Assembly: GCF_001485215.1 (NCBI RefSeq)
Contig: NZ_BBWW01000001.1
Location: 1 to 64,000, forward strand
From: Leptolyngbya sp. NIES-2104
GTDB taxonomy: Bacteria > Cyanobacteriota > Cyanobacteriia > Leptolyngbyales > Leptolyngbyaceae
Direction: 5' to 3'
DNA: 64,000 bases
Below are positions 56,314-64,000 of the stretch, one piece after another (within the stretch, counting starts at the first letter, position 1; every line of letters starts with the position of its first letter). Position numbers and translations under genes: made by a program. The notes under the pieces were generated by a model. The model had not been told where the DNA came from and ran no database searches. It was given only the letters and a program-made list of their open reading frames with translations.

Positions 56314-56736
56314 TTAAGAAGGGGCTTTCGGGCTAATCTCGAACTGTAATTGCGATCGATAAAAACAAACGTTGAACTCCATAAAAAAGTTCACTTGTCC
56401 CAAAATCATCGGTACAGTTGTGGCGCGAGTCCAAGCAAAGACAAGTGAAATCGGGTTAAGTTCTGCGATCGTGGCTTGAACAACTACCACTCGCGCCTCG
56501 TACTGAGCGAGATTACCCGTTAAGTTTAAAGCTTTAGTTTGTCTTTCCCACTCATAACCAAGCTCAACTCCAATCGAGTAGGGCAACACATTGACCGTAG
56601 CTCCTGTATCGAGCAAGCCAGACGAGGATACAGTATGCTGCTCAGTGGAAAGTACGATCGGTAAAAATGGACGAAATCCCAGTTCTTCCGGTGCTGAGTC
56701 GTTAGAGATAAAAGCATACCGTACAGGCTCAGGCAT
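56314..56736 (-). CDS. retropepsin-like aspartic protease
   Basis: 140 residues from MPEPVRYAFISNDSAPEEL. The DTGA active-site motif lies in SSGLLDTGATVNVLPYSIG, followed by strands and a C-terminal IPLMILGQ-type element (TVPMILGQVNFFMEFNVCFY) resembling the flap/second half of single-domain clan AA proteases, which act as homodimers. No membrane segment is present. The start overlaps the preceding small gene by eight bases. The substrate is unknown. Confidence 0.75.
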   Translation of the reverse strand: MPEPVRYAFISNDSAPEELGFRPFLPIVLSTEQHTVSSSGLLDTGATVNVLPYSIGVELGYEWERQTKALNLTGNLAQYEARVVVVQATIAELNPISLVFAWTRATTVPMILGQVNFFMEFNVCFYRSQLQFEISPKAPS

Positions 56737-56977
56737 GGTCTTGAGTCTTGGACTCCTGTAAAGCTTCCAACATGATTTCTGCGGCTTCAAACGCATCGTA
56801 AGGCGACCAGACTGGACAATCCTGCTCCGCTGGGATTAAGTCACCCACTTGCTGAATCGATTTTGCTTGTTTTTGATGAGACAAACGCTGACGAATTGCC
56901 TGAGTCAGTTGCTCTAATTCTTCTGGCTCAAGCGTGTCCAACTGATTCAAAATTTGGTTCAACGTTGCTTGTGCCAT
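56729..56977 (-). CDS. small helical partner protein of the aspartic protease
   Basis: 82 residues, acidic and Gln-rich (QATLNQILNQLDTLEPEELE, LTQAIRQRLSHQKQA), then IPAEQDCPVWSPYDAFEAAE. Predicted helical, like small antitoxin or adaptor proteins. No named family recognised. Its 3' end overlaps the retropepsin-like gene by eight bases, indicating coupled expression. Confidence 0.6.
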   Translation of the reverse strand: MAQATLNQILNQLDTLEPEELEQLTQAIRQRLSHQKQAKSIQQVGDLIPAEQDCPVWSPYDAFEAAEIMLEALQESKTQDHA

Positions 56978-58093: not shown

Positions 58094-58471
58094 ATGACTA
58101 AGACTGCAAATCAGCAAGCAGAGATTATCCGGACAGAGCGTGGGCTAACGATCGCAGGCACTCGCACAAGTCTTTATGACGTGATTGATTTGCTGAAATC
58201 CGATTATCCTCCCAAATTAATCCGGGACACGTTTAACCTCACGGATGCACAGATTGATGCAGCATTGTCTTACATTGAGGCAAACTCAGTAGTAGTTGAG
58301 GCAGAATACCAGGAAGTTTTGCAAACTAGAGAAGAGATTCGTCAGTACTGGGAAAAGCGAAACCGCGATCGCTTCGCTCAAATTGCAGCAACGCCTCACA
58401 AGCCCGGACAAGAGGAATTTTGGGCAAAACTTGAGGAAAAAAGAGCGAAACGCACCGCCCAACACCAATGA
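58094..58471 (+). CDS. DUF433 family protein (probable antitoxin)
   Basis: 125 residues. The DUF433 winged-helix-like domain is at about 10-70 (RTERGLTIAGTRTSLYDVID, then FNLTDAQIDAALSYIEAN), followed by a charged helical tail rich in Glu, Arg and Lys. DUF433 proteins are often antitoxins of PIN-like nucleases. The last four bases overlap the next gene (ATGA), which encodes such a nuclease-like protein. Confidence 0.8.
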   Translation: MTKTANQQAEIIRTERGLTIAGTRTSLYDVIDLLKSDYPPKLIRDTFNLTDAQIDAALSYIEANSVVVEAEYQEVLQTREEIRQYWEKRNRDRFAQIAATPHKPGQEEFWAKLEEKRAKRTAQHQ

Positions 58472-58860
58472 CCTTTCTAGTGGACTACAACCTGGATGGG
58501 TTCGCGCTCATTTTTCTCGGAATCCTAGCGAAAGGCGGTTGGCTTGAGTTTGCACCTGTTCAATTTGTGACATTTAGAGATGCGGGACTTGCGATGGACA
58601 GCAGCGATCGAACCGTCTGGCGTTATGCTCAAGAACATCAGATGCTGATTCTAACTGCAAACCGCAATATGAAGGGTGACGATTCACTAGAGCACGTGAT
58701 GCGCGAAGAAAATACCGAGAATTCGCTTCCAGTGTTAACAATTAGCACTCTCGATCGTCTAAGTGAAACAGAGTATCGAGAACGCTGTGCTGAACGCCTG
58801 ATTGAAATTGCTGTAGACCTTGACCAGTACAGAGGGGTTGGTCGGCTATTCATCCCATAA
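58468..58860 (+). CDS. PIN-like (DUF5615-related) toxin candidate
   Basis: 130 residues. It opens MTFLVDYNLDGFALIFLGIL, with an Asp at the start of the fold as in PIN-like nucleases, and has further acidic positions in FRDAGLAMDSSD and ILTANRNMKGDDSLEHVM, where the ILTANRNMKGDD segment recalls the ILTxDxDF strand of this group. Coupling to the DUF433 gene supports a toxin-antitoxin module. Activity is inferred only from fold-level likeness. Confidence 0.65.
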   Translation: MTFLVDYNLDGFALIFLGILAKGGWLEFAPVQFVTFRDAGLAMDSSDRTVWRYAQEHQMLILTANRNMKGDDSLEHVMREENTENSLPVLTISTLDRLSETEYRERCAERLIEIAVDLDQYRGVGRLFIP

Positions 58861-58869
58861 TTCCATCAG

Positions 58870-58895
58870 TTTGATTTCACTTTGTCTGAATCAAA
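58870..58895. terminator. weak hairpin between the convergent PIN-like and sufR genes
   Basis: TTTGATT (58870-58876) with AATCAAA (58889-58895), overlapping the last codons of sufR. Only 7 bp and AT-rich, so its role as a terminator is doubtful. Confidence 0.3.
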
Positions 58896-59509
58896 TATCC
58901 GCAGCGATGTTCGCCATTCACCTGCCAGTGAGTGCGTTCGACTTTGCAATCGGGAAGCGCGATCGCGAACATTTCTAACTCATGCCCGCACACGCTCGGA
59001 AACGATTCGGCAATTTGCGCGATCGCACAGTTGTACTCCGTCAAAACAAATTTGTCAGATTCGACCGGATGAGATTCCGCCATGTAGCCTTCTGAAATTC
59101 TCAGTTCAACCAGATTCGCGACTCGTTCTGCCACTGATCCTGTGCCGATGCGATCGCGATATTCGATCGCTTTTCGCTGCCATTGTTTTTGGAGAATCGA
59201 TTTCATCTGATCTTTGCTGACCGTTTCTGCCAGCGTTCCGAGCAGGGAAACGGCGAATTCATCATAGCGATCGGGAAACTGAGATCGACCTGCACGACTT
59301 AGTTCATAAACATAATTGGGGCGACCCATGCCTGCCTGAATTGCCTTGTGCAAAATCAAGCCCTCGGTTTCTAAATCCTTTAAATGTCGTCGAATCGCTT
59401 GGGGACTCACTTGCAACCGTTCCGCCAAATCTTGTGCGGTCGATTCACCTTGTTTTAGCAGGTGATGCAAAATATCTTGTTTCGTCGAGGGTTGCTGAGT
59501 CGTGGTCAT
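58877..59509 (-). CDS. sufR: SufR, Fe-S sensing repressor of the suf operon
   Basis: 210 residues. The N-terminal winged helix (about 8-75) has LLKQGESTAQDLAERLQVSP and QAIRRHLKDLETEG. The C-terminal domain has four Cys at 161, 174, 188 and 203, that is C-x12-C-x13-C-x14-C, the spacing known for SufR. The protein binds a 4Fe-4S cluster as a dimer and represses sufBCDS and its own gene when clusters are sufficient. It is divergent from ftrC-sufBCD, with two perfect operators in between. Confidence 0.95.
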   Translation of the reverse strand: MTTTQQPSTKQDILHHLLKQGESTAQDLAERLQVSPQAIRRHLKDLETEGLILHKAIQAGMGRPNYVYELSRAGRSQFPDRYDEFAVSLLGTLAETVSKDQMKSILQKQWQRKAIEYRDRIGTGSVAERVANLVELRISEGYMAESHPVESDKFVLTEYNCAIAQIAESFPSVCGHELEMFAIALPDCKVERTHWQVNGEHRCGYLIQTK

Positions 59510-59599
59510 GGTGGGATTTCACGTCAACGAATCGTAACGTTAGTTTACTCGAAATACTCGATCGTTCTCGCCTGGTCAAAAGACAGAATTTCACTTTGA

Positions 59600-59613
59600 C
59601 AACACTCAGGTTG
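59600..59613. promoter_or_regulatory. SufR operator site 1
   Basis: CAAC-ACTCAG-GTTG, a perfect match to the known SufR inverted repeat CAAC-N6-GTTG. It overlaps a TTGACA-like element at 59596-59601 and lies about 12 bases before a TACAAT -10-like box (59625-59630), so binding should block the suf promoter. Confidence 0.85.
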
Positions 59614-59639
59614 CTAAAGTACTCTACAATAGAGTTAAG

Positions 59640-59653
59640 CAACAAAGAAGTTG
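59640..59653. promoter_or_regulatory. SufR operator site 2
   Basis: CAAC-AAAGAA-GTTG, a second perfect CAAC-N6-GTTG repeat. Its centre is exactly 40 bp from the centre of site 1, about four helical turns, so two dimers could sit on the same DNA face. Confidence 0.85.
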
Positions 59654-59760
59654 TTTTAATTATAAACCGCTTCGGTCCATTTCGGCTTTTCTCGCTCAAT
59701 AGCGCAACATTCGTGTTGTTTTAGTAATAAGATCCATTAGATGTCCTGCTGATTTGGCTC

Positions 59761-60123
59761 ATGAATACTGAAACTCAGACTACACAAGCGACCGAAAAGC
59801 ATCTCGAAGCGATGCGCCACTTTTCCGAGCAGTACGCCAAGCGCACGGGAACTTATTTCTGTGTTGATCCGGGTGTGACCGCTGTGGTGATCGAAGGCTT
59901 AGCGAAGCACAAAGACGAATTAGGATCGCCGCTCTGTCCGTGTCGTCACTACGAAGATAAAGAAGCTGAAGTGGCTGCCGCTTATTGGAATTGTCCTTGT
60001 GTGCCGATGCGGGAGCGCAAAGAATGCCACTGTATGTTATTCCTCACGCCTGATAACGACTTTGCAGGCGAAAAACAAGACATTACGTTTGATGAGATTC
60101 GGCAGCATACCAATCTCGCTTAA
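59761..60123 (+). CDS. ftrC: ferredoxin:thioredoxin reductase, catalytic chain
   Basis: 120 residues with the diagnostic pattern CPC-x16-CPC-x8-CHC: C59/C61, C78/C80 and C89/C91. These supply the 4Fe-4S cluster and the redox disulphide that reduces thioredoxin in the light. It is the first gene on the sufB side, directly downstream of the SufR operators and 45 bases before sufB, so Fe-S status should control it. Its structural partner ftrV is at 9259-9480. Confidence 0.95.
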   Translation: MNTETQTTQATEKHLEAMRHFSEQYAKRTGTYFCVDPGVTAVVIEGLAKHKDELGSPLCPCRHYEDKEAEVAAAYWNCPCVPMRERKECHCMLFLTPDNDFAGEKQDITFDEIRQHTNLA

Positions 60124-60168
60124 GACCGCTCTTTTCCACCCTCTAGTTTCGAGAACACTGATTCAACC

Positions 60169-61605
60169 ATGACAACAACCTTTCAAACGCTCGTTAACCA
60201 ACCCTATAAGTATGGATTCGTCACCAATATCGAATCCGACACGATTCCTCGCGGACTGAGTGAGGATGTCATTCGTTTGATTTCTGCCAAGAAAGAAGAG
60301 CCGGAATGGTTGCTCGATTTCCGGTTGCGGGCTTATCGGCAGTGGTTGAAGATGACAGAACCGGACTGGGCAGCGGTAGGGTATCCCGCGATCGATTACC
60401 AAAACATCATTTACTATTCGGCTCCGAAAGTCAGTGAGAAGAAGAAAAGCCTCGAAGAAGTTGATCCCGAATTGCTAGAAACCTTCGAGAAGCTAGGGAT
60501 TCCGCTGTCTGAGCAGAAGCGTTTGAGCAACGTTGCCGTTGACGCGATTTTCGATAGCGTTTCAGTGGCGACCACGTTCAAGGAGAAGTTGGCGAAAGAT
60601 GGCGTGATTTTCTGCTCGATTTCGGAAGCGGTTCGCGAACATCCAGAGCTTGTCAAAAAGTATATGGGTAGCGTGGTTCCAGTTGGCGATAACTATTTCG
60701 CTGCTTTGAACTCTGCTGTGTTTAGTGATGGCTCGTTTGTGTTCATTCCCAAAGGCGTGAAGTGCCCGATGGAGCTTTCGACGTATTTCCGTATCAATAA
60801 CGGAGATTCGGGACAGTTCGAGCGGACATTGATCGTGGCGGAAGAAGGGGCACAAGTCAGCTATCTCGAAGGCTGTACTGCACCGATGTATGACTCGAAC
60901 CAGCTTCATGCTGCGGTGGTCGAATTGGTGGCACTTGATGATGCTGACATCAAGTATTCGACAGTTCAGAACTGGTACGCAGGGGATGCCAATGGTAAAG
61001 GTGGTATCTTTAATTTCGTCACCAAGCGCGGACTGTGCCAAGGGGTGAATTCTAAGATTTCTTGGACGCAGGTTGAAACCGGATCAGCGATTACTTGGAA
61101 GTATCCGAGTTGTGTCTTGGTCGGTGATAATTCTGTCGGTGAGTTCTACTCGGTTGCACTGACGAACAATCATCAGCAAGCCGATACCGGAACGAAGATG
61201 ATTCACATCGGCAAGAATACCCGCAGTACAATCATCTCGAAAGGAATTTCGGCTGGTCAGTCGAAGAATAGCTATCGCGGCTTAGTGAAGATGTCTCCGA
61301 AAGCGACCGGAGCGCGGAACTATTCGCAGTGTGATTCGATGTTGATTGGCGATCGTGCTCAAGCGAATACTTTCCCGTACATCCAAGTGCAGAACAATCA
61401 AAGCAAGGTTGAGCACGAAGCTTCGACCTCGAAGATCGGGGAAGACCAATTGTTCTATTTTGCTCAGCGGGGTATTTCTCCAGAAGACGCGATTTCGATG
61501 ATGATTAGCGGCTTCTGTCAGGATGTGTTTAACCAATTGCCGATGGAGTTTGCGGTCGAAGCGGATAAGCTGTTGAGCTTGAAGCTCGAGGGCAGTGTCG
61601 GTTAG
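60169..61605 (+). CDS. sufB: Fe-S cluster assembly scaffold SufB
   Basis: 478 residues, full length, with the SufB/SufD beta-helix core ([40 protein letters not shown]) and Cys in [11 protein letters not shown]-type and [15 protein letters not shown] segments. With SufC and SufD it forms the complex on which new clusters are assembled. The C-terminus runs up to 61605, 28 bases before the inserted aspartic-protease-like gene. Confidence 0.96.
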
Positions 61606-61633
61606 AGACTCAAGCACTTGCAGGAGTTCGAGT

Positions 61634-62080
61634 ATGAATACACAGATGGAATCGACAGAGATGGGACTGGTTTTCGCTGAGATTGAATTGATTCGTGGAG
61701 ATGATCTAGCGCTTGTTCGAGGCGGCTATCTTTCTGAAGATCAAATTCGTCGATGCACTGTTCGATCGATGGTTGATAGTGGCGCAACGATGCTGGCGAT
61801 TCCGGAGTTTGTGAGAAAGCATCTCGATCTCCCCAAAACTAGTGAGGTGGAAGCTGACCTAGCAGATGGTTCGAGTGTCAGTTTGGAAGTGGTAGGTCCG
61901 ATTGAGGTGCGATTTCAAAACCGTCGCACCCTTGTAGAAGCGATCGTGACTCCAAACTCGACGACGGTTCTGCTGGGAGCAATCCCGATGGAGGGCATGG
62001 ATGTATTGATTGATCCGAAGCGCCAGCGGTTGATTGTGAATCCTGAAAGTCCAGAGATTGCGAAAATGATGTTGATGTAA
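61634..62080 (+). CDS. clan AA aspartic-protease-like protein within the suf operon
   Basis: About 148 residues from ATG 61634, with AGGAG eight bases upstream; an alternative start at 61595 overlaps sufB. The active-site-like motif is DSGATMLAIP in VRSMVDSGATMLAIPEFVRK. It is followed by strands VEADLADGSSVSLEVVG and VEAIVTPNSTTVLLGAIPME, a single retropepsin-like domain that would act as a dimer. Asp-Ser-Gly replaces the more common Asp-Thr-Gly, which is allowed in the family. It stands between sufB and sufC on the same strand and so is likely co-expressed with them. Confidence 0.8.
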   Translation: MNTQMESTEMGLVFAEIELIRGDDLALVRGGYLSEDQIRRCTVRSMVDSGATMLAIPEFVRKHLDLPKTSEVEADLADGSSVSLEVVGPIEVRFQNRRTLVEAIVTPNSTTVLLGAIPMEGMDVLIDPKRQRLIVNPESPEIAKMMLM

Positions 62081-62107
62081 TGGGGCACAGCAGTTAGGAG
62101 GGAGCGC

Positions 62108-62890
62108 ATGATTGTTGAAAATGGTGAAGTAATTCTGTCAGTTAAAGATCTAACTGCTGAGATTGGTGGAACTCCGATTTTGAAGGGGATGAATCTCGAA
62201 ATTAAAGCAGGTGAGATTCACGCGATTATGGGTCCGAATGGATCGGGAAAAAGTACGTTTTCTAAGATTTTGGCAGGACATCCAGCTTACACCGTGACCG
62301 GTGGAGAAATCCTGTTTCGAGGTCAAGATTTGCTTGAATTGGAGCCGCATGAACGGGCGACTTCTGGCATCTTTCTAGCATTTCAATACCCGTTAGAAAT
62401 TCCGGGTGTAACCAATGTGGATTTCTTACGAGTTTCGTACAATGCGAAGCGCAAACAAGCAGGCTTAGAAGAGTTGGATGCCTTTGATTTTGATGATATT
62501 GTGCATTCAAAATTAGATCTGCTGAAGATGGATGCTGGATTTCTCAGCCGGAGCGTGAATGAAGGCTTTTCGGGAGGTGAGAAAAAGCGGAATGAAATCT
62601 TGCAAATGGCATTGTTAGAGCCAAGATTAGGCATCTTAGACGAGATTGATTCAGGGCTTGATATTGATGCTCTGAAAGTGGTTGCAAATGGTGTGAATGC
62701 GATTACGACAGCGGAAAATGCAACGCTCGTGATCACACACTATCAGCGGTTATTGAACTACATTACGCCGGACTTTGTTCACGTGATGGCGGATGGACGA
62801 ATTCTGCTCAGTGGCGGTAAGGAATTGGCACTAGAGCTTGAAGCGAAAGGATACGATTGGGTTGTTGAAGGTGAAACGGTAGGTGCATGA
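62108..62890 (+). CDS. sufC: Fe-S assembly ATPase SufC
   Basis: 260 residues, ABC-type ATPase: Walker [12 protein letters not shown]-loop, signature [11 protein letters not shown] (SufC-specific), Walker [13 protein letters not shown] and H-loop VITHYQR. It energises the SufBCD complex. GGAGGG-type ribosome-binding site (AGGAGGGAGC) lies seven bases before the ATG. Its stop overlaps the sufD start. Confidence 0.96.
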
Positions 62891-64000
62891 TGACTGACGT
62901 TTTATCTAACTCTGAGCTTGGGAACTTAACCACGATCGCGAATGTCGATCGCGCCGCTTATTACACAAATTTGCTCAATTTGCGATCGACAAACACCGCT
63001 TTCCAGGAGATTCGCGATCGCGCTTCGGCATCAGTTCACGATCGAGAAATTCCCTCGACTCGCAATGAGGAATGGCGCTTTATTGATCTCTCTGGATTGC
63101 TCACGCTCACCCTTAAAGCCGCTGAACCTGCGAACTTAAGCTTTCCGCAGATTGAATCTTTTCTACTACCAGAATCGGTAAATTCTCGCTTAGTGTTTGT
63201 GGATGGCGTTTTTGCTCCAGATCTATCTTCGGTTGATGACTTACCAGATGGCGTGATTGTAAGCAATCTCGAAACGGTTGCCCAATTGATGCCATCGCTC
63301 AAAGATACGATCGCAACTTTGCCCGGAGACGATGAAGTTTTCACAGCGTTAAACACCGCCAGCTTGAGTGATAGCGCGATCGTTTTCGTTCCTAGAAACC
63401 AAGATGTAGAAGTTCCAATTCAGCTTTTGTTTGTCGCGACCCAGGCAGAAAGTCTGATTCAGCCTCGTGTTTGTGTGATTGCGGAAACGGGAAGTCGCCT
63501 AACATTAATTGAAGACTTTGTGAGCTTGATGGATGGCGCTTATTGCACCAATGCAGTGACGGAAATCGCGATCGCAGAAAATGCAGAAGTTCGTCATACT
63601 AGAGTTCAGAGGGATAGTACCGAGTCCTTTCACATTGGTAAGACTGCTGTTTCGCAAGCGAGAGACTCTCGTTATTCGATCGCTACAATTCATCTCGGCG
63701 GCAAGGTGTCACGACACAATCTAGAGATTTATCAGACGGGTGAGCAGACTGAGACCACGATTAATAGTTTGACGGTGATTGATGAGAATCGTGTAAGTGA
63801 TACTCATAGTCTGCTATCGCTAACGAAGCCCTATGGTGTGGGTCATCAGGTGAATAAGACGATTATTAGCGATCGTGCTCATGCCATCTTTAACGGTAAG
63901 GTCTTTGTTCCCCAAGCTGCACAGCAAACCGATGCCCGTCAGCTTAGCCGCAATTTGTTGTTATCTCCGAAAGCTAGAATCGATACAAAGCCTCAGTTAG
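62887..64000 (+). CDS. sufD: Fe-S cluster assembly protein SufD (partial, runs off the window)
   Basis: 371 codons seen. It starts at ATG 62887 or ATG 62890 (the ATGATG overlaps the sufC TGA), opening [13 protein letters not shown]. Landmarks are [15 protein letters not shown] in the N-terminal domain and [19 protein letters not shown]-like and [20 protein letters not shown] segments of the beta helix shared with SufB. The reading frame is still open at the last base, so the C-terminus is missing from this window. Confidence 0.95.

Follow-up and report, generated by a model that had tools for sequence, protein, structure and literature searches.

A retropepsin-like aspartic protease gene recurs between sufB and sufC in the suf operon of filamentous cyanobacteria

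The suf operon of Leptolyngbya sp. NIES-2104 contains, between sufB and sufC, a gene for a small retropepsin-like (clan AA) aspartic protease, designated here asp (positions 61634..62080, forward strand, 148 aa; coordinates refer to the window, i.e., the whole analyzed stretch of 64,000 nucleotides). The gene occupies the same place in 27 cyanobacterial genomes of at least four families, is kept under selection, and has been lost repeatedly. We consider it fairly probable that asp is an optional but long-resident member of the suf operon, co-expressed with its neighbors and encoding a probably homodimeric protease.

The asp ORF begins with ATG, ends with TAA, and has the ribosome-binding sequence GGAG 7 bases upstream of the start codon. 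Translation could also start at the in-frame ATG of 61646 or of 61661, and conservation among the homologues begins at the third ATG (Met10-Gly11). The protein scored 29.3 bits against Pfam PF13650 (Asp_protease_2), above the gathering cut-off of 24.3, and thus belongs to this family, while its score against NCBIfam TIGR03698 (clan_AA_DTGF), 52.8 bits with an E value of 4e-14, is below the curated cut-off of 57.35; judged by these scores, it is a relative of the TIGR03698 subfamily and not a member. Like the TIGR03698/PF13650 proteins, Asp is a small single-domain clan AA protein, and the alignment spans positions 14–106 of the 107 in TIGR03698, but the suf-linked proteins differ from them in forming their own cluster with a fixed genomic place. 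The dN/dS values of asp in the usable pairs of homologues were 0.04–0.20, mostly above those of sufB and sufC; they indicate a real gene that appears to be under purifying selection where present and, together with conservation, rule out a spurious ORF. The G+C content (0.485) and GC3 (0.47) are both intermediate between the sufB and sufC values and do not support a recent foreign origin. The region 61560-62150 contains a single short inverted repeat and lacks direct repeats, so that a mobile element at the gene was rejected, as was a defense gene, since PADLOC gave no match to asp.

The AlphaFold2 model of the monomer, built from 50 aligned homologues (pLDDT 91.0, pTM 0.83), shows the retropepsin monomer fold typical of clan AA. 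Its best structural match was XMRV protease (Z 12.1 over residues 11–140, rmsd 2.5 over 106 residues), a Ddi1 domain gave Z 10.8, and Foldseek E values were 4e-5 against HIV-1 protease and 4.8e-5 against APRc of Rickettsia. Both Foldseek and VIA-align grouped the model with HIV-1, XMRV, and other retroviral proteases, Ddi1 domains, and Rickettsia APRc, while no solved structure close by sequence was found (best E 0.71). With the retropepsins (MEROPS A2) and the Ddi1 domain, the protein shares the predicted fold (Z 10–12), one DSG/DTG motif per chain, and an LLG motif, here LLGAIP at residues 113–118; it differs from them in being a free-standing bacterial protein, about 8%–19% identical in structural alignments, for which the dimer is only expected. 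This expectation of a homodimer with a shared active site comes from the single motif per chain, and the length of the protein also fits.

The catalytic motif VDSGAT (residues 47–52, with DSGAT at 48–52) is a single D-[ST]-G motif that follows a hydrophobic residue. All 50 aligned homologues retain Asp48, and Gly50 is kept in 25 of the 27 suf-linked copies. The remaining two copies have open frames and lack the DxG glycine, reading DRKST in L008 (G029) and DSSSS in L064 (G091), so that activity is not required everywhere; they represent natural active-site variants of the suf-linked protease. Loss of the active-site Asp in close homologues, named in the original prediction as evidence against it, was thus not seen among intact copies, the changes being confined to the glycine of these two. 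The altered loops would suit a protein that uses the retropepsin fold for binding or as an activator, catalysis being secondary, as would the long conserved segments GPxEVRFxNR and DVLIDPKxxxLIVNP located away from the active site, and RimB of Pseudomonas, a retropepsin-like protease, is known to stimulate its partner enzyme as well (PMC11957791). Such a non-proteolytic role is quite improbable in our view, because it does not account for the invariant Asp48 and the near-constant Gly50.

The neighboring genes were identified from profile matches, those of sufB and sufC being to NCBIfam equivalog models. The forward strand carries the ferredoxin-thioredoxin reductase catalytic chain gene (ftrB/ftrC, 59761..60123; PF02943, 1.6e-44), the first gene of the presumed operon, followed by sufB (60169..61605; NCBIfam TIGR01980, 674 bits, and NF008773, above cut-off), asp, sufC (62108..62890; NCBIfam TIGR01978, 358 bits, above cut-off), and sufD (62887..63999; TIGR01981, 193.8 bits on the truncated ORF, and PF01458), which overlaps the sufC stop and runs off the window. 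The divergent repressor gene sufR lies on the reverse strand (58877..59509; TIGR02702, 335.7 bits). The interval between sufR and ftrB contains three perfect CAAC-N6-GTTG sites (59600, 59640, and 59705, together 59600..59718), which match the SufR operator motif (PMC8593673); three such boxes upstream of ftrB-sufB have a probability of about 6e-7 under the window's background rate. The spacers are 28 bases between sufB and asp and 27 bases between asp and sufC; these lengths and the ribosome-binding site had been predicted correctly. Since the spacers are short, SufR sites are present, and a search of 59400-62400 gave no sigma-70-type promoter match, a single SufR-controlled transcript including asp is likely, and the predicted co-expression with Fe-S cluster assembly is plausible from the placement of the gene in the operon.

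Near the operon, adjacent genes for DUF433 and DUF5615 proteins with overlapping ends (58094-58860, forward strand) resemble a toxin-antitoxin pair. A second clan AA protease-like ORF with the motif DTGATVN (56314-56796, reverse strand) is preceded by an overlapping 82-aa ORF (56729-56977, reverse strand), also in a toxin-antitoxin-like layout.

Among 388 sampled cyanobacterial genomes, 51 encoded asp relatives at E<=1e-15. In 22 of these 51 genomes, assigned to 13 genera and the families f1, f13, f17, and f24, an intact or nearly intact gene followed sufB, and some of the others had broken copies. The arrangement sufB-asp-sufC was found in 27 genomes in total, all with co-directional placement, which rules out a strain-specific insertion and makes asp a recurrent suf operon gene; one of the 27 genomes scored as having it, G096 (L060), has one in-frame TGA. 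The named GTDB-genome records with asp include Myxacorys, Kamptonema, Microseira, Argonema, and Oscillatoriales USR001. In several lineages, the start of asp lies 0–7 bases from the sufB stop or overlaps it, as in TAATG and TAAATG (loci L006, L031, L038, L056-L060, L063, L064, L066, L068, and L069), suggesting that translation of the two genes may be coupled there. In a single genome, G236 (L100), a further gene separates asp from sufB. In Oscillatoriales USR001, the protease gene is duplicated in tandem within the sufB-sufC interval (L029:6001-6897).

The suf operon was the sole recurrent neighborhood of asp, and no shared neighbors were found for relatives outside suf. The loci L040, L041, and L043-L048 contain relatives (47%–59% identical) without adjoining sufB; their records are labeled Thiomargarita, Aminicenantes, Planctomycetota, Verrucomicrobia, and others, and may reflect either transfer or contaminated bins.

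Protein distances of Asp are correlated with the SufB (r=0.63) and SufC (r=0.73) distances, and none of 2000 permutations gave values as high. In a tree built from 48 Asp proteins, 3 changes sufficed to explain the suf-linked label, compared with 15.6 on average after shuffling. The suf-linked copies thus cluster together, and the gene probably entered the suf site on one or a few occasions; since many inner branches of the tree are weak, it does not prove a single entry. Two copies, from G084 (f24) and G050 (f17), fall with those of f1 in conflict with SufB, so transfer between species may also occur. In the pair G000 and G004, synonymous divergence (pS) is higher in asp (0.69) than in sufC (0.43), an excess that may reflect replacement.

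The presence of asp is patchy. On the SufB+SufC tree of 84 genomes, it required 22 changes, nearly the same as after shuffling, and 22 or 23 when remnants were scored as present or absent. This number, together with clear wreckage in at least four lineages, indicates repeated loss: disconnected frames remain in G005, whose SufB is 98% identical to that of the window; an internal deletion has shortened the copy in G009; that in G015 is interrupted by a stop and its motif is destroyed; and in G152, the middle third is gone, including the active site. Short tblastn pieces in G016, G022, and G155 (E 0.001–0.006) are suggestive only; G016 and G022 were labeled as remnants in the presence count. The short spacers of G001, G002, G003, G006, and G007, some with weak resemblance to the 3' end of asp, were not counted as remnants. 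Species of the same genus lacking asp have SufB proteins 93%–97% identical, and therefore no function of asp in the Suf system can be essential. Four of the asp-less spacers from this genus (L072, L074, L076, and L077) contain an inverted repeat recognized by eye (GGATTGGA ... TCCAATCC or close), which could form a hairpin.

The original prediction held that the order sufBCD is normally uninterrupted, and this is true of most cyanobacteria, whereas many filamentous lineages have additional genes between sufB and sufC. In 60 sufB-sufC spacers, 41 of the 42 ORFs of at least 120 aa were co-directional with suf. After the protease, the commonest cargo is an approximately 206-aa protein that carries a D-x13-ESK signature and has weak similarity to HSDR_N and PD-(D/E)XK models; nine relatives of this PD-(D/E)XK-like family occur outside suf in the genome of the window, one of them on a smaller contig. 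Other cargo includes GNAT-like, methyltransferase-like, and Uma2 proteins. The PD-(D/E)XK-like protein (e.g., L079:577-1197 and, oriented on sufB, L084:116-1404, L088, L095, L100, L101, L106-L109, L115, L119, and L127) is often encoded behind the protease in the same spacer, and shortened copies occur in other genomes. A conserved protein of about 345 aa is also encoded in the spacer (oriented on sufB, L088:567-1595, L089:779-1834, L095:592-1626, L100:1234-2292, and L101:593-1612) and gave no convincing Pfam or PADLOC match.

The junction thus tolerates accessory genes, presumably as long as they spare transcription of the essential genes downstream. The protease could then be a passenger, unrelated to Fe-S clusters, at an insertion-tolerant site that gathers short co-directional genes of families spreading among cyanobacterial genomes, as its patchy presence, the nearly uniform orientation of the varied cargo, and the dispersed PD-(D/E)XK-like family would suggest. 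However, random capture would predict neither one suf-linked cluster with few entries nor purifying selection and abutment on sufB in several lineages. The passenger role, also raised in the original prediction, thus agrees with the accessory genes in the same spacer, while selection and descent with the operon oppose a mere passenger; we regard it as a reasonable possibility that falls short of probable.

A protease dedicated to Suf, which upon failure of cluster assembly would trim or degrade SufB, a different Suf protein, or an apo Fe-S client, is favored by the suf operon being the only recurrent neighborhood, by translational abutment on sufB in several families, by co-divergence with SufB and SufC, and by the precedent of RimB, which serves the system of its own operon (PMC11957791). 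RimB is similar to Asp, by description, as an operon-encoded bacterial retropepsin-like protease with a cytosolic target, and differs in that it acts on the polyglutamate tails of RpsF (PMC11957791). Against dedication to Suf, asp is lost in close relatives with near-identical SufB and SufC, intact relatives exist outside suf, and asp is dispensable while sufBCDS knockouts are reported to be lethal in cyanobacteria (PMC7058544). The role in maturing or degrading Suf components proposed originally is weakened by this frequent loss, and we find a Suf-dedicated protease rather doubtful. Another bacterial protein with a retropepsin-like fold, APRc of Rickettsia conorii (PDB 5c9f), has been linked to rickettsial surface proteins (PMC8649778); unlike APRc, the 148-aa Asp sequence has no sign of export by eye.

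The favored reading is that of an old optional suf operon member in filamentous cyanobacteria. Asp would be a small cytosolic retropepsin-like protease, probably a homodimer with one Asp48 per subunit in the active site. Its gene would have entered suf in an early ancestor, on one or a few occasions, and then have been inherited with the operon, being kept by purifying selection where useful and lost many times. We infer that it would be co-transcribed with ftrB-sufB-sufC-sufD under SufR, so that the protein would be produced during iron shortage or a rise in oxidants; translation would follow straight after sufB in many lineages. Its inheritance with the operon, its position directly behind sufB, and the selection acting on it argue that its function gains from operon expression, and its repeated loss shows that this function is conditional. 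The likeliest action would be limited proteolysis of one or more cytosolic proteins made or damaged under suf-derepressing conditions, with a Suf protein or an Fe-S client as candidate substrate.

The clan AA protease and its fold are already known, and no description of the suf placement was found. In line with the original prediction, our partial coverage of the literature yielded no paper that describes a suf-linked aspartic protease. An uncharacterized suf neighbor, ENOG5032TZB, appears in a 2026 review (PMC13421787) and could be asp or another gene.

The suf genes are essential in cyanobacteria, and one would expect additional genes within their operon to carry a cost. Repeated loss argues against asp being necessary for Fe-S cluster assembly. 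The strongest form of a link to this process, a dedicated retropepsin that in some cyanobacteria is translated behind SufB, is induced through SufR, and cuts a Suf protein or an apo Fe-S client once the supply of clusters fails, seems unlikely to us; if true, it would add a previously undescribed proteolytic arm to Fe-S homeostasis. Species that are nearly identical but differ in the presence of asp, together with the natural active-site variants, offer a comparative test of a tie between proteolysis and Fe-S supply. Even if the Fe-S link is false, the case shows the sufB-sufC junction to be a recurrent holding site for accessory genes.
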